Below, one piece after another: positions 5,047 through 45,210 of a stretch of DNA of 45,210 nt. This stretch comes from a virus. The notes beneath the pieces are model-generated. The model did not search any database. It saw only the letters and a program-made list of their open reading frames with translations, and had not been told where the DNA came from. The first letter of the stretch is position 1; every line of letters begins with the position of its first letter. The translations under genes and the position numbers were made by a program. The stretch is from IMG/VR virus record IMGVR_UViG_3300022169_000006, positions 1 through 45,210 of that record; one strand, written 5' to 3'.

Positions 5047-6223
5047 ACACCTAAGCATTAATTTTAACGATGACAGCTATTTGCAATTTTGCACTGAGCT
5101 GCAGCGTGAGCATTTTCTAGCGTGCCGTGATGCGCTAGGTAATCAAAGCAGGGCAGCTCGAAACATTGGCGCAACTCGCGACTCTGTGCGATCGTCAATC
5201 CGCAACATCCACCGTAAAGCAGCTAAAAGAGGTTATGCGCCAGATAGCGATATGACCAAGGTTTGCCCAGACGGATTTAGGCTCAAAGGCACGTCAACGT
5301 TATATGGGCAGGATGGTGAGAAAAAAATACAGTGGGTAAAGACAGACGTTGACGCAGAGCGCCGTGCGGAAATGTTTGAGGAAGCCATAAAAGCAATGAG
5401 CGAGTCGCTACCAAGGGTTGAGCCGTCAATTGCGCCTGCAATGTGCAACAGCGACTTGATGGCAGTTTACCCGCTTGGAGACCCACATATTGGCATGTTA
5501 GCGTGGGGCGAAGAATCTGGCATGGATTGGGATTTAAAAATAGCGGAGGAAAAATTCTGCGGAGTATTTGACAGACTTGTTAATACGTCACCACCATGTG
5601 CCGAGTGCGTCATTGTTAACCTTGGCGATTTTTTTCACGCAGATAATATGGAAGGTCAGACGAGCAGGTCTAAGCATTCTCTAGATATGGATGGCCGCTA
5701 CGCAAAAATGATTAGGGTTGGCGTTAAGATTATCCGTCAAATGATTGAATCTGCGTTAAAGATACATCAAAAAGTAAGGGTGATTAACGCTGTCGGCAAT
5801 CACGACGATACAGGGTCGCTGTTTCTTGCCGTGTGTCTTGGTAACATTTACGAAAACGAACCGCGAGTGACCGTTGATAAATCACCAACGCCGTTTCACT
5901 ATTTTCAGTGGGGCAAATCGCTGTTTGGTGTCCATCATGGACACACCTGTAAAGCTGAGCGCCTGCCGATGGTAATGGCAACCGACCAATCAAAATTATG
6001 GGGAGAAACCGAGTTTAGAACCTGGTTAACTGGCCACATCCACCACGACACCAAAAAAGAATACTCGGGCTGTGACGTTGAATCGTTTAGGACATTAGCA
6101 GCAAAAGATGCTTATGCTGCATGGGGAGGATATAGGGCAAGGCAGGATAGCAAGTGCTTGGTGATACACAAAGAGTATGGCGAAGTTGAGCGGCATACTG
6201 TGAATATAAAAATGCTAGGGTAA
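5027..6223 (+). CDS. Metallophosphoesterase with N-terminal helix-turn-helix
   Basis: 398 residues from the ATG at 5027, preceded by AAGGAAG. Residues about 30-70 form a helix-turn-helix-like segment (NQSRAARNIGATRDSVRSS). The C-terminal two thirds is a calcineurin-like phosphoesterase: D152-x-H154 in GDPHIG, GD201 in LGDFFHADN, GNHD at 257-260, HHGH at 303-306 and GHIHH at 336-340, giving the metal ligands. Such phage enzymes hydrolyse phosphodiesters, perhaps in DNA or nucleotide turnover; the N-terminus suggests DNA targeting. Last gene of the rightward block, followed by a terminator. Confidence 0.85.
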   Translation: MPKKTYEHLSINFNDDSYLQFCTELQREHFLACRDALGNQSRAARNIGATRDSVRSSIRNIHRKAAKRGYAPDSDMTKVCPDGFRLKGTSTLYGQDGEKKIQWVKTDVDAERRAEMFEEAIKAMSESLPRVEPSIAPAMCNSDLMAVYPLGDPHIGMLAWGEESGMDWDLKIAEEKFCGVFDRLVNTSPPCAECVIVNLGDFFHADNMEGQTSRSKHSLDMDGRYAKMIRVGVKIIRQMIESALKIHQKVRVINAVGNHDDTGSLFLAVCLGNIYENEPRVTVDKSPTPFHYFQWGKSLFGVHHGHTCKAERLPMVMATDQSKLWGETEFRTWLTGHIHHDTKKEYSGCDVESFRTLAAKDAYAAWGGYRARQDSKCLVIHKEYGEVERHTVNIKMLG

Positions 6224-11452: not shown

Positions 11453-11494
11453 TGTTACGCAGTTTTGCAAAGCCTGTGTTTTTATTGTGTAATC

Positions 11495-11872
11495 AAAACA
11501 CAAGTGCAACCGCTTGATTTATATAATGTTTGTGCAAAACCACGTGTAAACCTGTTTATTCAAAACACAAGCGTAACTCATTGATATTAAAAGATTTCCC
11601 GTCCAAATTGTGTGTTTATTGTGTTTTTCTCTTAGTGTGTATATGTGTATGGGTATATCCTCGCGCGCGTATGTGTATATATAAATATTTCTTTTATTTA
11701 TTTATTTATTTAATATTAATGATATTAATGATATTTGAACAAAAAAAGATGAATATCTTTACATTTCAATAGCTTACACTTGTGTTTTGATTCCGTTATA
11801 ATACACAAGACTACACAAAATCAAACAGGTTTAGAAAAAACGCCTTTAAATACAATACCTTGCGTTTGTGTA
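11495..11872. other. Iteron-flanked AT-rich intergenic locus A (candidate origin)
   Basis: The 549-base gap 11393-11941 has no credible gene. Copies of AAAACACAAGYGYAA lie at 11495-11509 and 11562-11576; reverse-complement copies lie at 11774-11788 and, degenerate, 11859-11872. Between them are alternating TCGCGCGCGTATGTGTATAT (from 11661), a TTTA repeat (11692-11712) and AAAGAT / ATCTTT arms. Opposed iterons around an AT-rich core are typical of replication origins; partition or regulatory use is possible. Its partner is at 26699-27090. Confidence 0.65.
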
Positions 11873-11897
11873 AATTCACACAGGTTTATGGCAGGCA

Positions 11898-11925
11898 ATA
11901 AAAAACCCACACAATGGCGGGTTTG
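11898..11925 (-). terminator. Leftward terminator after the small-gene operon
   Basis: Minus-strand AACCCGC, loop, GTGGGTT followed by TTTTATT. It ends transcription from the gene stopping at 11942 before it enters the repeat locus. Confidence 0.8.
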
Positions 11926-18076: not shown

Positions 18077-18100
18077 CTTTATAATCTCCATCTTTTGTTG

Positions 18101-18140
18101 TTGACAGTTGCATGTTATGTCGTTAATATTCAGTTGTCAA
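18101..18140. promoter_or_regulatory. Face-to-face divergent promoters, second copy
   Basis: Rightward: TTGACA (18101-18106), 17-base spacer, TAATAT (18124-18129). Leftward on the other strand: TTGACA (18140-18135), 17-base spacer, TAACAT (18117-18112). The layout and the TTGACA / TGTCAA inverted repeat are the same as at 2844-2877. Both directions start genes with GATGGAG ribosome sites. Confidence 0.75.
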
Positions 18141-18160
18141 TAACTGATGGAGATAAAAAT

Positions 18161-18736
18161 ATGAACACTAAAGCAGAACAGGTTTTTAACGAGTTGGTGG
18201 AAAAGTTTAAGAAAGAAGCGATGAGTGCTGTCAATGAATCTATTGCGACAATTCATGGCGACCTACTGCCATACATCAACGTAGATACTGAAACAAACGC
18301 AAGATATCGCGCTGTTGATATGGTTAGTAAGATTTTAGTCGGTGATTTTGAGTTTGACGATAATTACGTAAAGGTTGATGGCTGGATTATATGTCGTATC
18401 AACGACTTTAATTACAACAAAATTGTGGACGTGTTAGCTGCAAAAGCTGGTGACGCAGCAAAAGATGCAAAGATAGCGCGGCTTGAGGCGCAAATTAAAG
18501 ATATGTACGCTGGTAGGATTGATATGCACATAAAAATTGAATGGATGGGTGTAGACTGCATCGCTGACTATTGGGTCGAGGATGGCGTGGCGATAGTTGA
18601 TGGGATACTAATCGGCAAGCAGCATATCTATATGTTCGAGGCATCAAACGCCGTTAGTGATGAGATTCACGCGCTAGTTGACGCAGCTAGACGTGGGTAT
18701 GTTGATGATACTATGTATTTTGGTGAGGAAATATGA
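18161..18736 (+). CDS. Hypothetical early protein
   Basis: 191 residues starting MNTKAEQVFNELVEKFKKEA, with GGAG eight bases before the ATG. The N-terminal half is helical and acidic. The centre holds a coiled-coil segment (AKDAKIARLEAQIKDMYAG), and the C-terminus ends in DDTMYFGEEI. First gene after the divergent promoter, so early expression is likely. Function unknown. Confidence 0.65.
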   Translation: MNTKAEQVFNELVEKFKKEAMSAVNESIATIHGDLLPYINVDTETNARYRAVDMVSKILVGDFEFDDNYVKVDGWIICRINDFNYNKIVDVLAAKAGDAAKDAKIARLEAQIKDMYAGRIDMHIKIEWMGVDCIADYWVEDGVAIVDGILIGKQHIYMFEASNAVSDEIHALVDAARRGYVDDTMYFGEEI

Positions 18737-26650: not shown

Positions 26651-26679
26651 ATTATGCGCCCAAGTGTTGAGTGTGTCAA
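26651..26679 (-). promoter_or_regulatory. Strong leftward promoter before the YopX-like gene
   Basis: Minus-strand TTGACA (26679-26674), exactly 17 bases, CATAAT (26656-26651). Consensus -35 and near-consensus -10. It lies at the left edge of repeat locus B. Confidence 0.7.
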
Positions 26680-26698
26680 TATTTCGCCTGTGTAAAGT

Positions 26699-27090
26699 CT
26701 GTGTAAAAACACACAGATGCAAGCCTATGATTTTAAACAAGTTATTTTTAAACCTGTGGGATTTTGTTTAATTTTGTGTATTCTTGTGCAAACAAAACAC
26801 AAGTGTAAGGTGATGAAAAATAAGGAAAAGATGATTTTTTTGTGTATTTTCTATTAATATCTATAAAGTATAAATAAATAAATAAATAAAAGAAATATAT
26901 AGTCGTGCGCGCACGCGCGTAGAGACATATACACACATACGGGTATAGCAAAAATACACAGGTTTTACACAAAAAAAGACGAATATCTTTGCAAATCATA
27001 GCCTTGCGCTTGTGTTTTTGGTTTCACAGATTACACAAAATAAACAAGCTTTTTGATAAACTTGTTTACATTCAACTAGTTGCGCTTGTG
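26699..27090. other. Iteron-flanked AT-rich intergenic locus B (candidate origin)
   Basis: The 617-base gap 26621-27237 has no credible gene. AAAACACAAGTGTAA is at 26794-26808; reverse-complement copies lie at 27004-27018 and 27080-27090. Between them are an AAAT repeat (26871-26891), a CGTGCGCGCACGCGCGTAGA segment (from 26904) and an ATATCTTT arm near 26983-26990. At the left edge is a hairpin CTGTGT / ACACAG (26699-26716). The locus is related to 11495-11872, but its central tract is in inverted orientation. It abuts the DUF3987 helicase gene, which favours a replication role. Confidence 0.65.
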
Positions 27091-27192
27091 TATGATTTCA
27101 ACGAAAAAACACAGGTTTTCGCATTTTTGCTTGTTATTGTTTTTATTTTGCGTTTATTGTTTGCGTTTTGATTGCAACTTGGAAGTGCGCAA

Positions 27193-27237: not shown

Positions 27238-28830
27238 CTAATCAATTAGCTTGTGTGATACATAAAACCGATTGCGCTTGCGAATGACATATCCGTCGGC
27301 CTCCAGTTTTGGCATTATGGTCTCGCGCAACACCTCGGCGATTTTGCAGTTTGCAAACTCTTTTCTGCTGCGTAGCGAGTTCGATAGCATCTCAAATGTG
27401 ATACTTGGGTACGTCTTTTCGATTTTTGACTGCTTCAAATCCTTTTGCAATTTGCGCTTCATATAGTCGATAACAGCGTTAAACTTTGGCGCGTCGCCAG
27501 AGTAACCGCGTGACTCGGTTTCTTGGAGGTATGTGCGACTTAGCTCGCGGAATATCTCGATTGCGCGTCGCATTGTCTTGAGTCCGATATCTTTGCGTTT
27601 TTGTCCCGACGATGACCACTCAGACGCCACCCAAAGCACCGACGCAATTTTGCAAATCTGCTTATCGGCTTTACCCATTGCGCCCCGTGTCATGTTGTCA
27701 GAAAATCGGCCCGTGTCGCCCATTTCAGCTTCGATTTCATTCCTGAACCTGGCAAGCTCACGTATTGCGTCGCCAGTAAAGCGTAAAACCGTCTCATCCT
27801 CATGTGACACACGATTGACGGTATTAATGTATTCCGCCTTTAAACTTCCATCTATCGGCGTGTAATCGAGCATATCGCGAGTGCCTAACCTGTGCGGCTC
27901 ACGCATTAGCAAAATGCGCTCAGATATACCGCGGCCTGACTCACCCGCTATCAATATTTGCTCGACCGCCTCAGACTGGGCCAAAACAACAAACGAGCCT
28001 CTAATGTAACCCTCGAACCCGTCGCGAGTGATACGTGATGATGAGTGCCATTCTCCCGAGTACATTTTCAGGAACACGCCATGGTTAGTTTTTTTAGCTG
28101 CACTGTCACCGTAAGAAAAACCCAGCATAACGTTAACCGCGTCCGATTCGTCTGATACGATATTCGCCCAACCATCTTGTAAGCTCATTTGTTTCTCGAG
28201 CGCTTCGGGTGTTGCATCGTCAAGTGTAACTTTTAACGAGCCAAGACTTTCAGACTTTTGAACAAGCCTAGCGATATCTGACGCAATTTGCGCCTTGCTT
28301 GAGTCTGTCGCGGCCTTCAACTGGTCTTTTAGTGATTGAATGTCCATGTAAATTTTAATTTTTTCAGATGCGCGTTTTTCGTTTAGTGATTTGAACGCAA
28401 TGCGGATCGGGTCCATCCAATATGACGTCACGCCCGATTTTCCGGTTGATGGCGGCTGTGCTGTAACAACAAACAGGTTGCAGGGCTCCTCTTTGTCGCC
28501 GTAGATGCTGTATTTAAAGTTGCGACTAATAGCAGCAGATAAGCAGCCTAACCCGTGCAACATTGCGGTATTGACGGGAAATTTAACAGTCTCGCTAATT
28601 GATTTGCTATAACGCTCAATAATGTTAGGGCGCCAACCATCAATTGCAGTGTTAACAATATCAACAACAATCGCGTTATCTTCTGGCCGATAAAATTTAA
28701 TAGGCGGCCACATATCAGAGTCGGTAAGCGCCACAAGTTTATCTTCGCGATCTTCAATAATAAGATGCGATAGCGACTCATATTCGCTATTGGCCAGCGC
28801 TTCAAATAATGTTTCGTTTTCGTTTATCAT
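27238..28830 (-). CDS. DUF3987 replicative helicase-like ATPase
   Basis: 530 residues starting MINENETLFEALANSEYESL. Residues 124-132 (AQPPSTGKS) are the Walker A site. The ADAVNVMLGFSYGD region and FVVLAQSEAVEQILIAGESG follow the DUF3987 pattern, phage and plasmid ATPases thought to act as replicative helicases or primase partners. The C-terminal 90 residues are helical with basic surfaces. It lies next to repeat locus B and opposite the primase operon. Confidence 0.75.
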   Translation of the reverse strand: MINENETLFEALANSEYESLSHLIIEDREDKLVALTDSDMWPPIKFYRPEDNAIVVDIVNTAIDGWRPNIIERYSKSISETVKFPVNTAMLHGLGCLSAAISRNFKYSIYGDKEEPCNLFVVTAQPPSTGKSGVTSYWMDPIRIAFKSLNEKRASEKIKIYMDIQSLKDQLKAATDSSKAQIASDIARLVQKSESLGSLKVTLDDATPEALEKQMSLQDGWANIVSDESDAVNVMLGFSYGDSAAKKTNHGVFLKMYSGEWHSSSRITRDGFEGYIRGSFVVLAQSEAVEQILIAGESGRGISERILLMREPHRLGTRDMLDYTPIDGSLKAEYINTVNRVSHEDETVLRFTGDAIRELARFRNEIEAEMGDTGRFSDNMTRGAMGKADKQICKIASVLWVASEWSSSGQKRKDIGLKTMRRAIEIFRELSRTYLQETESRGYSGDAPKFNAVIDYMKRKLQKDLKQSKIEKTYPSITFEMLSNSLRSRKEFANCKIAEVLRETIMPKLEADGYVIRKRNRFYVSHKLID

Positions 28831-29069
28831 TAATTGTCGCCTCGCACAAAGTCGATGTTAAAAGGCTTATCTGTTAGACGGCCAACATGATTAACCATTG
28901 CATCAAACGTCTTGAATTCACGAACATGACCACGCTTACTGTGCAGCTCATGCCAATTTTCGCTGGTGCAAACTTCGAGTATTAAATTTCCGTTTTTATT
29001 AACACATCTCATCTTTGCTAAATCATGCTCTAGCATGACTTTTAGCTGTTCGTTGCTGACTTTAGCCAT
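28830..29069 (-). CDS. Hypothetical protein upstream of DUF3987
   Basis: 79 residues starting MAKVSNEQLKVMLEHDLAKM. Helical N-terminus, then beta and a HELHSKRGHVREFKTFDAMV middle. The stop overlaps the DUF3987 start. Likely a small partner of the replication gene; not recognised. Confidence 0.55.
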   Translation of the reverse strand: MAKVSNEQLKVMLEHDLAKMRCVNKNGNLILEVCTSENWHELHSKRGHVREFKTFDAMVNHVGRLTDKPFNIDFVRGDN

Positions 29070-29095
29070 TTTTTACCCCGTTTTGATATTTTCGG

Positions 29096-29123
29096 TTGAC
29101 CAAAACATAATAAACGTTATTAT
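29096..29123 (+). promoter_or_regulatory. Rightward promoter of the replication operon
   Basis: TTGACC (29096-29101), 16-base spacer, TATTAT (29118-29123), ahead of the primase gene. The spacer and -10 include an imperfect palindrome around AACGTT. A weak opposing promoter for the DUF3987 operon may overlap. Confidence 0.65.
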
Positions 29124-29154
29124 AAGCACAATGCAACAAGAAGTTGAGGTTTTA

Positions 29155-30192
29155 ATGATTAGTGTCGAATCAATAAAAGCATTAGCAAATGGACGTTGGC
29201 CCGAGGTTTATCAGTGGCTAAATATAAGTGTGCCAGCCAACAGAAAGCATGGACCTTGCCCGATGTGTGGCGGCAAAGACCGTTTTCGTATGGATGACAA
29301 GCAAGGCGAAGGCACCTGGATTTGCAACCAATGCGGCGCGGGTGACGGGATATCGCTTGTTCAAGAATATAATAATTGTGACTTTGTGACTGCAATTAAT
29401 CTTTGTGCTGATGCGCTTGGTATTCAAGACTATGATGCAATCAAGCGCCAAGACAACGAACGCAGGTATCAAGCAAAGCAATTACAGCAGTCAGCAGAAG
29501 CAGCCAAACAGAAGCAAGAACAAAACGCGATAACGGCTAGCAAAGCGTCTGAAATCATAGCTCATTGCGATAAAGCGGATTCGATGCACCCTTACCTAGT
29601 CAAGAAGCAGATAAACGTTAACAGCGCGCTACAGTGCTTTAAGCGTGTTGAGGTTGAAACCAAGTCGGGCCGCATGATGAGCATTCAAGGATTTTTAGTT
29701 ATACCGATGATCAACGACAGAAAAAAGCTAGTTAACTGTCAAATTATATCGCCATGCCTGAAATATAAGTTATTTCTGTTGAACGGTCAGACAAAAGGCG
29801 CATTTCACGTGATTGGCAATATCAAAGACGGCCAGCCAATATTAGTAGCCGAGGGATACGCAACAGGCGCAACGGTTCACGAGCTAACAGATATGGCTGT
29901 TGTTGTTGCGTTTACTGCTGATAACCTGCTCATTGTTGTTGAGTCGATTATTTATGACTATCCGCACTCGAAAGTCGTAATCATGGGCGACAACGATTGG
30001 CACTTAGAAGATCCAACCAAATACAAAAAACCACTAAACAAGGGCAAATACAAAGCAGCACAGGCGGCATCCAAAACAGGAGCAAGATTAATGTTTCCTG
30101 ATTGGGCGCGAGGTGTAACAGATTTTAACGATCAATACGTGATACACGGTAAAGGTATTAATATTAATAAGTTGATGGAGATGGTGATATAA
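29155..30192 (+). CDS. Primase with zinc finger and Toprim domain
   Basis: 345 residues from the ATG at 29155 (MISVESIKALANGRWPEVYQ), with GAGG upstream; the longer frame starting earlier lacks support. Zinc finger CPMC at 35-38 and CNQC at 57-60 is the P4/T7-type primase finger. A Toprim fold follows with E233 (VAEGYATG), D279 and D281 (MGDND), the metal ligands. It makes RNA primers. First gene of the rightward replication operon. Confidence 0.85.
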   Translation: MISVESIKALANGRWPEVYQWLNISVPANRKHGPCPMCGGKDRFRMDDKQGEGTWICNQCGAGDGISLVQEYNNCDFVTAINLCADALGIQDYDAIKRQDNERRYQAKQLQQSAEAAKQKQEQNAITASKASEIIAHCDKADSMHPYLVKKQINVNSALQCFKRVEVETKSGRMMSIQGFLVIPMINDRKKLVNCQIISPCLKYKLFLLNGQTKGAFHVIGNIKDGQPILVAEGYATGATVHELTDMAVVVAFTADNLLIVVESIIYDYPHSKVVIMGDNDWHLEDPTKYKKPLNKGKYKAAQAASKTGARLMFPDWARGVTDFNDQYVIHGKGININKLMEMVI

Positions 30193-30385: not shown

Positions 30386-31508
30386 CGAGTTCTTTTGCTC
30401 AAACACGCATTCACATGATGGGCTTTACAGTGTTTGCCACACATGCAGAAAGCAAAAGCTAAAAAGGATCGTTGGCTTAACTAGGTGCGAATCATGCTTA
30501 GACTTAAAGGGTAACGACAATTTCTCCTTAAGTAAGAAAGTATGTAATTCATGCCGCAAAGATAACGGAACGGAACAAAAGGCAGTTATTAGCAAGTCAG
30601 AAGCTAGATTGTTAGGGTTAGCTAAGTATTTTACTGGCACGCCATGCAAAAGAGGCCATGTTGCAGAAAGACTTGTTTCAACTGGTCATTGCGAAACTTG
30701 CAGAAAGCTAAGGAAGAAAGGGCTTCTAGAAAACATTAACAAACCAAAAGGATATTGGTTAATTAAAGAGAATGTATTAAACGAGGCAAAAAAGTACAAA
30801 GATAGACCGGAAATGAAGCTTAAAAACAATCCTGCATATGTTGGACTTTGCAAGCTTGATTTGTGCGTAGAGGCTTTCCCAGCCGACACAAAACCAAACG
30901 GATATTGGACTGTAGAAAGGTGCTTTGAAGCAGCCAAGCTTTATGGTGACATATCTGAATTTTCAACAGGAGAGCACATGCGAGCATACAACATGTTATG
31001 CCGCGAAGGATTAATAACGGAAGCGTCAAAACACATGAGCAGGAAAAGGGTTAGAAACAATCACTGGACAAAGAAAAGCTGCAAAAAAGAGGCTTTAAAG
31101 TATAACACTAGGAACGAATTTAGAAAGTTTGCAAGCGGGGCATACAGTAAAGCCAGTGATGAGTCATGGCTTGATGAGATATGCGCGCACATGGGATGCG
31201 GATACAAAGCTAGCGACACTGTTTATATTTGGAAGGTAGCTGGGTTTTGTGATCTTTATAAAATCGGCCTATCCAACAAAAGAATGTGCGAAAGCAGAAT
31301 TAATATTGTTGCAAAATCTCATGGTTACAAGATCGAAAATAGCTGGGCTTTTACCGTTGGCGTTGAATCTGCTTACATGACAGAAAAAGAATGCCTAAAG
31401 TTTGGCCGCAAGGCTAAGGTGGCTAAAAAAGACGGTTATACAGAGTTTCGCCACTTAACCTGTAAGCAGTTAAACGAATTATTATTAAAACTTGAAAATT
31501 TAAAATAG
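30261..31508 (+). CDS. Zinc-finger / GIY-YIG (T5orf172-like) endonuclease
   Basis: Open frame of 415 codons. Three cysteine fingers: CGKCQKLLPASSEFFC, CESCLDLKGNDNFSLSKKVC, CKRGH...CETC. Then three approximate repeats with GYW/HW, an EA.KY-type helix and AY..., of the kind that accompanies nucleases in phage mobile endonucleases. The last 95 residues start VYIWKVAGFCDLYKIGLSNK, the GIY-YIG/T5orf172 pattern. The only available start is a GTG with a poor site, so this frame may be entered from 30239 by a frameshift or an error. Likely mobile. Confidence 0.65.
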   Translation: MKNVKPNSTELQKQNTAVQHAELGRIVRKICGKCQKLLPASSEFFCSNTHSHDGLYSVCHTCRKQKLKRIVGLTRCESCLDLKGNDNFSLSKKVCNSCRKDNGTEQKAVISKSEARLLGLAKYFTGTPCKRGHVAERLVSTGHCETCRKLRKKGLLENINKPKGYWLIKENVLNEAKKYKDRPEMKLKNNPAYVGLCKLDLCVEAFPADTKPNGYWTVERCFEAAKLYGDISEFSTGEHMRAYNMLCREGLITEASKHMSRKRVRNNHWTKKSCKKEALKYNTRNEFRKFASGAYSKASDESWLDEICAHMGCGYKASDTVYIWKVAGFCDLYKIGLSNKRMCESRINIVAKSHGYKIENSWAFTVGVESAYMTEKECLKFGRKAKVAKKDGYTEFRHLTCKQLNELLLKLENLK

Positions 31509-31521
31509 ACAGGAGTTGATG

Positions 31522-33405
31522 ATGGATATACCAAAACTAGGCAAAATAACCCCGTACCCGTTCCAATGGGACATTGCGCAAAACATGCTAGGCCACATAC
31601 GCAAGGTTTTAAAAGGTGAGATTGAGCCAGAGGCAGCATTTATTAACGGATTTGTCAGTGCTGGTAAAACAATTATCGGCGGCATTATCGCTCGCCACTG
31701 TGAAAAGGTCGGGGCTAGGTTATTAATACTTGCTAGGACTGGCGAGCTTGTTGAGCAAGATAGCGATGAAGTGTGGAATATGGGTGGCAAGTCAAGCGTT
31801 TACAGCGCAAGCCTTGGCGTAAAAAGCACACATTACAACGTTGTTGTTGGAACTGAGGGCACAGTTGCTAATGCGCTAGATACTGACTTTGCAACATGGA
31901 TCCCGCACGTAATATTGATTGATGAATGTCATGAAGTTAATTGGGAAAGCGTGATTAATAATGATGAGTCTCAGTACGCAAGAATAATCAATCACTTTAA
32001 GCGCATTAATCCAAAGGTAGCTATTGTTGGCATGACAGGAACACCATACCGAGGTGTTGAGTCAATCAAGGGGCCTTTTTGGAAAACTGAAATCAAGCTA
32101 ACTGATGGGCAGGCGATTGATAGAAAATTTTTAGTTGATAAAGAATACATTGTCCCAACCATATTCGGTTTTGGTCACGATGACGCACAGTATGACATTA
32201 AAGGATTCGATCCTGAAAACGAGTTAGGCACAAAAGAGTTCAGCGATTCACAGCTAGAAGAAATGCACGCTCAAATGAATATGAGCAACACGCAGGCAAT
32301 TATGCGTGAAGTTCAAGAGGTGATGAAGTCAAGGCATTGCGCAATTATCACTTGTGCAGGTAAAAAGCACTGTGAAGAAGCCGCAAGTTGCTTACCTGAA
32401 GATGAATATGCAATTATCACCGATAGCACTCCGAGTCGAGAAAGGCGGCTGATACTTAAAGGGGCTAAGAATGGCGAGTTAAATAGCCGTGGGACTTTTA
32501 GATATAAGTACCTTGTGCAGGTTAGCGTGCTCACAACTGGCATAAATTTGCCACTTGTTGATACAAGTATAATATTGCGTCGCATTGGCTCTTTAACGCT
32601 TTTAGTTCAGCTATTAGGCCGAGGTATGCGCCTATTAAAACCTGAGCACATCGAAGCAGGCTACACAAAAACAGATCACCTTGTGCTTGATTACACCTCA
32701 ACGATGAGTGCTATGGCCGAGCTATTCAACGATCCAATACTTGAAGAAGCACAACTAAGCCACGCAAAACAAAATGGTGAGTATATAACGTGCCCGATAT
32801 GCAGCACACAAAACAGCGTACATGCAAGGCGATGTATTGGCACTGATACAATCGGCGATCAACCAGATAACCGTTGCGGTCACTGGTGGAAATTTAGGAC
32901 GTGCGACGATGAAGTGATCAACGGAATTAAAATCGGTGTTGGCTGCGGTCATAAAAATGACATTGCGGCACGTGAGTGTAGCAATTGCGGAAAGTATCTG
33001 ATTGACCCCAACGCAAGACTGACAAAAAAACATTACAGTGATGCAGATTGGCGGCCAGTAGTTGGCTGGCATCTTGAGGTTATCGGCAAAAATAACGATG
33101 CAATCAAGGTCACTTACTATTTAGACGTTTACGGCATCGATGGCGAGCAAGAAGTCGCGGAAGTCATTTACTGGGCGATTTTTGCGGGTGGTGCGCATGT
33201 TTGGAAGTCTAAATTCATCGGCAAGCATGTCAAAAAAGGTTTATGGCAAAAAGCTGTTACATGCAAAGACATCAACAAGTTAGTGCAAAAAGACTTGTGG
33301 AAAGACCCGCAATTTATCACACACCGCAAAAACGAAAAAGGACAAAGCATTGTTCACGGCGTAACATTTACGGGCGACACACTTTATACGGACGGCAGCA
33401 AATGA
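31522..33405 (+). CDS. DEAD/DEAH-type helicase with zinc finger
   Basis: 627 residues from the ATG at 31522 (MDIPKLGKITPYPFQWDIAQ), with AGGAG six bases upstream; a nearer ATG at 31519 and TTG at 31516 are alternatives. Walker A GFVSAGKT at 43-50, motif II DECH at 134-137, MTGTP at 171-175 and a later QLLGRGMRL. C-terminal zinc sites CPIC..., and CGHKND...CSNCG. This is a superfamily 2 helicase for replication or recombination. Confidence 0.85.
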   Translation: MDIPKLGKITPYPFQWDIAQNMLGHIRKVLKGEIEPEAAFINGFVSAGKTIIGGIIARHCEKVGARLLILARTGELVEQDSDEVWNMGGKSSVYSASLGVKSTHYNVVVGTEGTVANALDTDFATWIPHVILIDECHEVNWESVINNDESQYARIINHFKRINPKVAIVGMTGTPYRGVESIKGPFWKTEIKLTDGQAIDRKFLVDKEYIVPTIFGFGHDDAQYDIKGFDPENELGTKEFSDSQLEEMHAQMNMSNTQAIMREVQEVMKSRHCAIITCAGKKHCEEAASCLPEDEYAIITDSTPSRERRLILKGAKNGELNSRGTFRYKYLVQVSVLTTGINLPLVDTSIILRRIGSLTLLVQLLGRGMRLLKPEHIEAGYTKTDHLVLDYTSTMSAMAELFNDPILEEAQLSHAKQNGEYITCPICSTQNSVHARRCIGTDTIGDQPDNRCGHWWKFRTCDDEVINGIKIGVGCGHKNDIAARECSNCGKYLIDPNARLTKKHYSDADWRPVVGWHLEVIGKNNDAIKVTYYLDVYGIDGEQEVAEVIYWAIFAGGAHVWKSKFIGKHVKKGLWQKAVTCKDINKLVQKDLWKDPQFITHRKNEKGQSIVHGVTFTGDTLYTDGSK

Positions 33406-34741: not shown

Positions 34742-35254
34742 ATGAGGTTTATTAACCTTCCAGAATTAAAGTTACTTAACGAAAGATTTTATATCTGTGA
34801 ACACAACAAGCTTAGGCACAAAAGCAGCGCTGGAGGCGTAATTGTTGGATCTGAAGCTGGCACCCTAGATAAGCAAGGATACATGAGGTTTGTCCTTAAC
34901 GGGAAAAAATACAATAACCACAGGGCCATATACTTTATGCGAACAGGAGAGGACCCTATGGAAATGGAGGTGGATCACATTAACGGAGATAGGCTTGATA
35001 ACTCGCCAGAAAACCATAGGCTAACATCAAGAAAGCAGAACGGAAGAAACAGGGCTCTAAACAAAAACAATAAACTAGGGGTGAAAGGTGTTTACTGGTG
35101 TAAGCGAGACCTAGTTTATAAGGCTTTCATTAGGGTTGACGGGGTAAAAATAAACCTTGGCAATCACAATCAATTAGAAAGCGCAAAGTCAGCATATAAA
35201 TTAGCAGCAAAAAAATATTTCGGCGAATTTGTAAGGAGTGAAGATAATGAGTGA
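34742..35254 (+). CDS. HNH-AP2 homing-type endonuclease
   Basis: 170 residues starting MRFINLPELKLLNERFYICE, with AAGGAGG upstream. HNH core: H60-R61, VDHINGDRLDN at 77-87 (D78, H79) and N91. AP2 domain about 112-162 (KGVYWCKRDLVYKAFIRVDG). HNH plus AP2 is the form of free-standing homing endonucleases. It uses AGA/AGG codons far more than its neighbours and splits a recombination operon, which fits insertion as a mobile gene. Confidence 0.85.
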   Translation: MRFINLPELKLLNERFYICEHNKLRHKSSAGGVIVGSEAGTLDKQGYMRFVLNGKKYNNHRAIYFMRTGEDPMEMEVDHINGDRLDNSPENHRLTSRKQNGRNRALNKNNKLGVKGVYWCKRDLVYKAFIRVDGVKINLGNHNQLESAKSAYKLAAKKYFGEFVRSEDNE

Positions 35255-42205: not shown

Positions 42206-44217
42206 TAGAATGTTCTCCCTTTGGCGTCTGTGCCTGTTGTTACGGCTCTAAATGTTTGACCTTTATTGTTGAAATCGGCAACCCATAATTTAATAAACTG
42301 CCTGCCTGTTGATTCATCAAAACCTTGCGATTGCCCTGTTACTTCTTGCGGAGTGCCTTGGTTGATGATTTGAATATCAATGTTAGCTTGTCCGCCGCCA
42401 CCATTCATTGCGGCCATTAAGTCGCTATTGCTAACGACTTGACCGCCCTTTGCGCCCATTAGCATTGGATTGCCGCTTTGTGGAATATAAAGCTCAGTGC
42501 GACCACCTTCAGCAACTTGGTAGTTTGAGCCGTAACCGACTGAGCCGCCATAGTTACGTGCGCCTGCTGTTGATAGAGTTTGCGACAGCGCATAAGTAGA
42601 TGCAATACCTGTTGATGCTGGCGCAGCGTTAGCGCCATAACTTGCAAGCGATACCGCGGCGGCGGCAGGTGCCCAAGCTGACGCTACAGCAGCACCAGAC
42701 GCAACACTTGCGGCAGCAGCGGCAGATTGCGCAGACTGACCAATGATGGCATTTTTTACATACTGTAAACCCATTTGAACGAGTGAGTTAATCGCATCAT
42801 TAAGGATGGCATTAGCTAGACCTCTGAACGCCTCTTTTGCGGTCATCGTCTGAGATACCATGCCAGTGAACACTTGCGAAACGGTGCCGCTTAACGAGTT
42901 TAGCCCGTCAATCAGCATCTTATTGCCCTCTGACTGCATAGCAAAACTTTGCTCCGCTGCGGCCATACGATTAGCTTCATATTGCGCATCGATAGCTTCA
43001 CGCGCGTCTACAGCCAACTGGTGATTGGCAGTCTCAAGCGCTTCATACTCTGCAACAATGGCAAGCTGTCTTTCTCGCTCGGCCGTTAATTTTGCAAGCG
43101 GGTCTAAACCTGAATCGGCAAAGCCTTGGGTTTGCCCCGTTACCTGCTCGGCACGCTTGCGTTTAGCCTCCAACAGCTTAGCCTCGTTCGCCAGCTCTTT
43201 TAGCATTTGCGCTTCGTTGGCTTTTGCTGCCGCAGCCTCCTCTCTTGCGCGTTCCTGTGTAAGCTTTACTTCTTCGGCTTTCTCTCTCTTTAGTCTGATT
43301 AGGCTTTCTATTTGCGCGTCAATGACTGGAGGTATCATTTCACCAGCTTTAAGGCCAAGCTCTTGAGCAACCGCATACCTAAGCGATGCCTCCTCACCAT
43401 CTCTTAATGCAATAATTTGAGATGTTAGGCTTTCGGTAATGCTGGCAAGTCTAGATTCAACACCTTTATCTTGGCCTAGGCTTTTTATCGTTTCTTCGGT
43501 TTTCTTTATCTCAATCGACGTTGACGCCAATGCAGCCTTTGTTGTTACAAGTTCTGCCTCAACATCTTTTGGATCATCGCCAATCAAGCTGTTTAAAAAT
43601 GACGACCCTCGGCTGCTTGACTGTAATTGCCTAGCCGCAATTAACGCAGATTGCAGCTCGTTCACCTGCTTAGCTAGCGCGGCGGCTTCCTTCTTTTGCT
43701 CATTTAACTTTACTATCAAGGCGTTTTTTGCTACAGACTGTTGCGTTTCGCTTAGCTTGTTAAAGTTCTCATTTAACAACTCGATAGAGTCGTCAAGCTC
43801 TCTTACCTCTGCCGTTGCTCCTATCAGTTGTGGGATAAGAAAACCTGCAATACTTGCGCCAATACCTATAACCGCACCAGCAAGTGGAGCACCAAGCACA
43901 AAGCCTAAGTCAGCACCCTGTTGAGATAGCGCCAGCATCGCATCTTGCCCGCCTTGTATTTGGCCTACGAATTGCTGAATTTGTATGCCTGCCTGACCTG
44001 CATTTCTGCCAACACCGCTTATTTTAGAGCTAGCAGATGTTGCAGCCTTACCAGCGCCGTCAAGCGCTTTTGAAGCCTTAGAGCTGGCTGGCGTTAAACT
44101 GTTAAGTGATGCCTCGGCTTTATTTACAGACGTTCCAAGTCTTGTTAAGCCGCTTACCGCTTCGGCATCGTCAACAGTGACACCGTAACCAATCGAGCCT
44201 AAATTCACGTCAGCCAT
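42205..44217 (-). CDS. Tape measure protein
   Basis: 670 residues starting MADVNLGSIGYGVTVDDAEA. Long helical and Ala-rich regions, a hydrophobic segment (ALSQQGADLGFVLGAPLAGA, then LAGAVIGIGASIAGFLIPQL), coiled coils, and a C-terminal YGGSVGYGSNYQVAEGG..LYIPQSGNPML segment are typical of tape measures. Length sets tail length. The upstream neighbour is the chaperone, with overlapping start. Confidence 0.85.
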   Translation of the reverse strand: MADVNLGSIGYGVTVDDAEAVSGLTRLGTSVNKAEASLNSLTPASSKASKALDGAGKAATSASSKISGVGRNAGQAGIQIQQFVGQIQGGQDAMLALSQQGADLGFVLGAPLAGAVIGIGASIAGFLIPQLIGATAEVRELDDSIELLNENFNKLSETQQSVAKNALIVKLNEQKKEAAALAKQVNELQSALIAARQLQSSSRGSSFLNSLIGDDPKDVEAELVTTKAALASTSIEIKKTEETIKSLGQDKGVESRLASITESLTSQIIALRDGEEASLRYAVAQELGLKAGEMIPPVIDAQIESLIRLKREKAEEVKLTQERAREEAAAAKANEAQMLKELANEAKLLEAKRKRAEQVTGQTQGFADSGLDPLAKLTAERERQLAIVAEYEALETANHQLAVDAREAIDAQYEANRMAAAEQSFAMQSEGNKMLIDGLNSLSGTVSQVFTGMVSQTMTAKEAFRGLANAILNDAINSLVQMGLQYVKNAIIGQSAQSAAAAASVASGAAVASAWAPAAAAVSLASYGANAAPASTGIASTYALSQTLSTAGARNYGGSVGYGSNYQVAEGGRTELYIPQSGNPMLMGAKGGQVVSNSDLMAAMNGGGGQANIDIQIINQGTPQEVTGQSQGFDESTGRQFIKLWVADFNNKGQTFRAVTTGTDAKGRTF

Positions 44218-44907: not shown

Positions 44908-45210
44908 TTACGCTGCGGTTAAAGATACCATCGTGGTATTGTAATTTGACTCCGTAATGTCAAATTGCACGTCAAATGTGACAAAGTCTGTTGTGTCACC
45001 CGTACGGCTGTAAGATGACATCACACAAAATGGTCGGAATGTTAAATCAGGGAACGCTAGACGAACATATAAACGCAAACCGTCGCCTGCTGCATTTTCA
45101 AAATATGCCTGAACAAGCGCTAAGTGATTTGCATCATCTTTTTTACACTTACCAGAGCCTGACACGCTAAAGTTTGCACCAGTAACCAGCGTTGACGCAT
45201 AACCGCCCTG
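44908..45210 (-). CDS. Major tail tube protein, C-terminal part (5' end cut by window end)
   Basis: This is the distal part of the gene that begins at 306. The frame runs through the repeat into a C-terminus ending VSLTAA at 44908. The middle contains short beta-rich stretches (RLYVRLAFPDLTF, FVTFDVQFDITES), as expected for a tail tube beta-sandwich. A hairpin terminator follows at 44854-44885, before the chaperone gene. In the full product this half supplies residues 75-159; the last three bases of the window are not reliable. Confidence 0.7.
   Translation of the reverse strand, partial: QGGYASTLVTGANFSVSGSGKCKKDDANHLALVQAYFENAAGDGLRLYVRLAFPDLTFRPFCVMSSYSRTGDTTDFVTFDVQFDITESNYNTTMVSLTAA
45082..45207. 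repeat. Terminal direct repeat, copy 2 (contig overlap)
   Basis: Exact copy of bases 1-126. The final three bases (45208-45210) differ from 127-129 and are probably assembly noise. The unique genome length is therefore about 45.08 kb. Confidence 0.9.

Follow-up and report, generated by a model that had tools for sequence, protein, structure and literature searches.

Two related iteron-bearing loci, candidate paired replication origins, in the genome of a phage with a DUF3987 helicase

The Bacillus phage SPP1 has paired replication origins, oriL and oriR, which lie 12-13 kb apart in a genome of about 44 kb and each consist of repeats and an AT-rich unwinding element (PMC6316719, PMC3485210). 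One of these origins lies within the replication genes and the other among late genes, and the protein G38P, when bound at oriR, has been proposed to stall replication forks (PMC3485210, PMC6316719). The phage genome described here resembles that of SPP1 in having two related sites, hereafter called locus A and locus B, separated by about 15 kb; B lies in the replication region and A near late genes. Compared by description, SPP1 has a DnaB-type helicase, a loader and the replisome organiser gp38, whereas the present phage has a DUF3987 helicase; furthermore, the SPP1 repeats are direct and oriL lies inside gene 38, whereas A and B contain inverted, outward-facing sets of iterons and are both intergenic. 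By analogy, A and B would work like the paired origins of SPP1, but they are not classed here as members of that system. Lambda-type and plasmid iteron origins resemble A and B in the arrangement of initiator-binding repeats beside an AT-rich melting region, but in those systems there is a single origin, its iterons are direct, and that of lambda lies within a gene, whereas A and B are two intergenic sites with inverted iteron sets. The satellite phage P4 has two separate cis regions, ori1 and crr, which carry the same iterons and are served by one replication protein, alpha, a single primase-helicase-initiator. Unlike in P4, primase and helicase are encoded separately in the present phage, and A and B are each provided with an AT-rich core.

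The DNA analysed, hereafter called the window, is the whole 45,210 bp of the IMG/VR virus record IMGVR_UViG_3300022169_000006. It has a direct terminal repeat of 126 bp (positions 1-126 equal 45082-45207), indicating that the genome is circular or circularly permuted and about 45.1 kb in size. The best matches of its terminase are in Vibrio phages (62.6% to LP.1), and a search of bacterial genomes with the capsid protein, made to find a host, gave no match. The replication and recombination set includes the DUF3987 helicase, a primase with zinc ribbon and Toprim domains, an SF2 helicase, a DUF3799 exonuclease and a single-strand-binding-like protein. Neither a phage DNA polymerase nor DnaB or a helicase loader was found among the window proteins scanned (a subset of the open reading frames), the helicase present being that of the DUF3987 family. 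An HNH endonuclease gene with an AP2-like domain, probably of the homing type, is located within the replication operon (34742-35254).

Locus B (26682-27120, plus strand) is, according to self-alignments, an inverted dimer of half units of about 150 bp with an AT-rich and alternating-GC core between them. It lies between the DUF3987 gene, the identity of which agreed with the original prediction (PF13148, E 1.9e-41), and a YopX-like gene on the minus strand. Locus A (11468-11892, minus strand) is the second copy, likewise an inverted dimer of half units around a polar core; it is flanked by a small gene and by a gene of the phrog_760 family, two genes from the putative capsid gene. The core is made up of an (AAAT)n tract, AAAAGAAATAT, an alternating CG tract and a purine-pyrimidine tract, and its polarity is opposite in A and B, yet the flanking genes are all on the minus strand. 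The AAAT tract and the CG-rich alternating segment that had been noted in B were both present: the former is read directly from the sequence at 26870-26894, and the latter, TCGTGCGCGCACGCGCG, at 26903-26919 (plus strand), is conserved in the four-locus alignment, from which, together with the sequence, the corresponding tract of A was placed at 11661-11669 (minus strand). Formation of a hairpin by the alternating CG segment was considered and rejected, its single-strand folding being no better than that of shuffled sequences.

When A was reverse-complemented and aligned with B, the two shared 74% identity over 206 columns (E 3.5e-28), with an alignment score of 174 as compared with a mean of 25 and a maximum of 40 for shuffled sequences. 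A second locus of the same design about 15 kb away, as originally predicted, is thus present, in inverted orientation and with identical internal geometry, and its similarity to B extends well beyond AT content. A scan of the whole genome with a half-unit model gave nothing else convincing besides the four half units from which the model had been built. No credible similarity to the DNA of A or B was found in annotated phages, weak matches to Staphylococcus phages (E 0.4) overlapping the AT-rich core, and neither locus matched Rfam.

The 15-mer originally proposed as the repeat, AAAACACAAGTGTAA, is exact at 26794 (plus strand) and its inverted copy at 27004 has 2 mismatches, but at 27080 the match is limited to the 12-base core; a fourth copy in B, at 26711, had been overlooked. 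The exact 15-mer was discarded as evidence, since its occurrence in the whole genome with up to 3 mismatches was not significant (7 found, 3.5 expected) and at least 118 unspecific matches were obtained when viral contigs were scanned for it. The degenerate core TTRCRNNTGTGT, on the other hand, was found 11 times against 0.66 expected, a count reached in none of 100 shuffles, and 8 of the 11 are in A and B. A tighter form, TTRCRYNTGTGT, has eight exact copies genome-wide, four in A and four in B. The iterons of B are TTGCATCTGTGT at the outer left (26711-26722, minus strand), TTACACTTGTGT at the inner left (26797-26808, minus strand; the repeat first noticed at 26794) and TTGCGCTTGTGT at both the inner right (27004-27015, plus strand) and the outer right (27080-27091, plus strand). 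Those of A are TTGCACTTGTGT (11498-11509, minus strand), TTACGCTTGTGT (11565-11576, minus strand), TTACACTTGTGT (11774-11785, plus strand) and TTGCGTTTGTGT (11860-11871, plus strand). Both loci therefore have two minus-strand iterons followed, across the core, by two on the plus strand, facing outwards. The hexamer TACACA occurs 7 and 9 times in the two loci and 17 times in the rest of the genome. Three of the four perfect DnaA boxes (TTWTNCACA) of the genome are also found here (11531-11539, 26700-26708 and 26963-26971), which may reflect only the TACACA iteron; the corresponding loci of T1 and of genome G026 contain none.

Since the iteron pattern was fitted to the window's own sites, an independent test was needed. 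The relative G001 (IMGVR_UViG_3300010372_000001) was found through its helicase, 77% identical to that of the window, in an alignment search of IMG/VR, and thus independently of the loci. It contains one locus adjoining the helicase gene (B', 760-1112) and another (A', 31352-31705) between homologues of the two genes flanking A (71% and 40% protein identity). A' and B' have opposite polarity, as have A and B, and the spacing of the loci likewise matches. The core TTRCRNNTGTGT, as defined on the window, was found five times in G001 (0.62 expected), always inside A' or B', and these copies are oriented as in the window and similarly spaced. When 2.9 million viral contigs were searched for the inner pair of sites at 180-210 bp, the pattern matched the G001 contig only, twice. 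AT-rich intergenic DNA is prone to spurious matches, and the 15-mer alone is not significant, but the probability that A and B are alike by coincidence of composition is negligible: their alignment scores far exceed those of local-composition shuffles, the geometry is identical in an independent relative and a single contig was matched among the 2.9 million, so that this explanation is refuted for the window and G001. The formal alignment, the shared geometry and the retention in G001 of both sites with their opposite polarity firmly support the original suggestion that A and B are one shared element present at two sites.

Duplex stability was calculated genome-wide as nearest-neighbour free energy of 100-bp stretches. 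The least stable stretch of the genome is in A (11676-11775, z 5.2) and the second least stable in B (26801-26900, z 4.6), where it contains the (AAAT)n tract; the third had a z of 3.2. Both are candidate DNA-unwinding elements, and the centre of that in B is 388 bp from the DUF3987 helicase gene. Measured from the centre of the weakest duplex and corrected for polarity, the iterons are at about -137, -51, +150 and +227, positions which agree in A, B, A' and B'. GC skew, which had been suggested as a check for an origin, shows no switch at A or B and is uninformative because it tracks gene orientation.

The comparison was extended to 31 genomes encoding a DUF3987 helicase, with lambda, HK97 and three Vibrio phages from the terminase matches (LP.1, 1.076.O and 1.154.O) as controls. 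The two least stable stretches were similar to each other, with a score reached in none of 200 local shuffles, in the window, G001, G016, T1, TLS, RTP, F20 (= G018), G021, G023 and G026, and marginally so in G017, G022 and G002 (1, 2 and 3 of 200 shuffles, respectively). Lambda, HK97, LP.1 and 1.076.O had no similar pair and 1.154.O a weak one (9/200); in the remaining single-site genomes, for which 60 shuffles were used instead of 200, the z of the pair similarity was below 1. Where the iteron motif is clear, it varies by lineage but matches within the pair: GGGACAA has 9 and 10 copies in the G026 pair and 4 elsewhere, ATCTTAC, which is clear in G017 too, has 10 and 4 in that of F20 and 8 elsewhere, and TAAGCAA has 6 and 5 in that of G016 and 7 elsewhere. 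In T1, TLS, RTP, G021 and G023 iteron enrichment is weak and the similarity of the pair lies mainly in the AT core.

In many DUF3987 phages only a single site can be recognised. In 13 genomes other than the ten with pairs, the least stable stretch of all was no more than 1.3 kb from the helicase gene (2.9 expected), and in 18 of the 31 either of the two least stable stretches was within this distance (5.5 expected); as the genomes are partly related and the tests not fully independent, these probabilities are indicative only. The top cluster of repeated 7-mers was near the helicase gene in eight genomes; in G001 the top cluster was the distant locus and the second the near one.

T1, TLS and RTP (Drexlerviridae) have the same helicase family as the window, and in each the two weakest duplexes of the genome are two mutually similar sites, the pair within a genome outscoring every cross-genome pair among unrelated lineages. 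The candidate sites are 203-302 and 29997-30096 in T1, 194-293 and 28810-28909 in TLS, and 202-301 and 28084-28183 in RTP. Unlike the window, these phages have weak iterons, in shared-motif tests within or near the control range, so no firm claim of iterons is made for them; their sites are roughly 4-15 kb from the helicase gene (2-17 kb in the T1 group) rather than adjoining it, and no origin is annotated. A re-analysis of TLS, a relative of T1, in 2024 reported a lack of iteron-type repeats throughout the genome and named no origin (PMC11447400). Our search of the literature, which covered mostly non-subscription papers, so that an earlier description is possible, found none on origins of the T1 family.

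Short clustered repeats that are rare elsewhere, an adjacent, easily melted AT-rich element that is the genome's least stable duplex, a linked gene for the replicative helicase and the recurrence of these features in several lineages are to be expected at a replication origin, and here two related sites of this kind are present on one genome, as in SPP1. From these features we infer origin activity: A and B are probably paired iteron/DNA-unwinding origins organised like oriL and oriR. Two origins had been one of the functions first proposed, and it is the best supported, by the iterons, the duplex weakness, the adjoining helicase gene and the occurrence of the same architecture in many DUF3987 phages. 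The other proposal, an origin plus a termination site, is kept in the form of a fork-block variant, as proposed for oriR of SPP1. One site would then be the origin, and the other, which shares its iterons, would serve to block forks, to switch replication or to terminate it. Being a sub-case of the paired-origin reading, with which its confidence overlaps, this variant is possible but appears somewhat unlikely. The shared iterons, the opposite core polarity and the distance of about 15 kb, an arrangement like that of oriL and oriR, are consistent with it, but the iteron set is complete at both sites, their cores are equally weak, and neither site looks degenerate in the window or in G001.

The main rival to paired origins is that A and B are duplicated transcription-control regions, with arrayed operators or upstream elements through which a phage regulator would control the neighbouring operons. 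Each locus is located between a terminator and a promoter: a terminator-like hairpin (11903-11924, minus strand) lies at the outer edge of A, with a similar hairpin at the edge of A', and a sigma-70-like promoter, TTGACA-17-CATAAT (26651-26679, minus strand; 11 of 12 consensus matches), lies next to B. This clear promoter, which serves the downstream minus-strand gene, falls however just outside B, and promoter-like sites within the two regions are at chance level (7 against 6.4 expected and 3 against 5.5). In T1, TLS and RTP both sites are intergenic according to the annotation: one separates divergent early operons and the other precedes the recE/recombination operon, as would suit regulatory regions. 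Repeated promoter or leader regions do exist in such phages, for example the 21-bp repeats of TLS (PMC11447400) and, in the window, a 74% DNA repeat (2836-2911 and 18093-18168) at which two plus-strand genes begin, their leader peptides being similar (LLLTV...); this repeat is probably a shared promoter/leader. Control of transcription does not account readily for a polar core that is reversed between A and B when the flanking genes are co-directional, nor for sites that are the weakest duplex of the genome and, where single, cluster by the replicative helicase gene across lineages. As the function of A and B it is thus rather improbable, although one site could serve both replication and transcription.

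A partition site had also been suggested originally, and iteron-like inverted repeats around a core do resemble the centromeres of low-copy replicons. That A and B are partition, centromere or incompatibility sites of a plasmid-like prophage is nevertheless very improbable, as no ParA/ParB, integrase or repressor was found among the window proteins scanned (a subset of the open reading frames) and the same architecture is found in T1, a virulent phage.

The DUF3987 helicase gene next to B (27238-28830, minus strand) also matches the DNA helicase family phrog_2373 (E 2.2e-121). The best PDB match of its AlphaFold2 model (pLDDT 89) was MCM (E 1.7e-5), a distant match given the TM-score of 0.38, and the model raises the possibility that DUF3987 proteins are MCM-like replicative helicases. 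The C-terminal end of the model has a helix-strand-helix-helix-strand-strand segment which is winged-helix-like in appearance. The primase gene (28966-30192, plus strand; PF08273, E 6.9e-19; PF13362, E 6.3e-6; phrog_2249) is close by, and a gene for a 79-amino-acid protein (28830-29069, minus strand) overlaps the helicase start and has homologues at the same place in genomes L131 and L132. The search for a phage protein that binds the motif yielded two candidates. The 79-amino-acid protein is a candidate iteron-binding initiator by position; it had no match to any known family, DNA-binding families included, and its model (pLDDT 87) had no confident PDB match, a weak match to a ribosomal protein being uninformative as to its fold. 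The winged-helix-like segment predicted for the helicase is the other candidate.

In the paired-origin mechanism that we propose, one of these two candidates would bind the outward-facing iterons flanking the AT-rich core, which would melt and allow the DUF3987 helicase to be loaded. The phage primase would then prime synthesis and a host polymerase would extend, the latter being proposed because the proteins scanned yielded no phage DNA polymerase. Early theta replication probably begins at one site, and the second, with its opposite polarity, might be a second origin or a fork-stalling or restart site which begins the synthesis of concatemers, as proposed for SPP1 oriR.

In several relatives, the gene at or just upstream of the helicase start encodes a small protein with a YdaS-like HTH (E 3.8e-19 in L180). 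An AP2-like alternative at this position had a weak Pfam score below the cut-off and clearer PHROG matches to HNH endonuclease families, and further protein types were classed by eye only. The small gene coupled to the helicase (L141, 9560-9829; L180, 9276-9515; L129, 5474-5779; and others) seems to be swapped for different DNA-binding folds by lineage. Tentatively, phages with an MCM-like, winged-helix-tailed DUF3987 helicase might share one origin design, in which iterons flank an AT-rich core that is either single beside the helicase gene or duplicated at a distance, as in the T1-like phages and the present one. The iterons and a swappable small initiator encoded just upstream of the helicase (YdaS-like HTH, AP2 or others) would then change by lineage, while the copies within a genome are kept matching.

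Two exact candidate origins are now named in each of T1, a founding model phage, TLS and RTP, so that initiation of replication can be tested directly in E. coli. The paired sites of the window may represent a second case of paired origins in the manner of SPP1, served by a different helicase. For uncultured phages, the analysis provides a recipe by which candidate origins are sought as the weakest duplexes of the genome, and it is then asked whether these form a matching pair or lie near a DUF3987 gene.

Two minor observations were made in the genomes compared. Genome L126 (XCL1123) has two similar AT-rich divergent promoter regions (5453-5573 and 43985-44104), apart from its helicase-linked locus. 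T1 (L287) has a tandem repeat of about 128 bp with 96% identity (27806-27933 and 27905-28032) inside its large tail protein gene.
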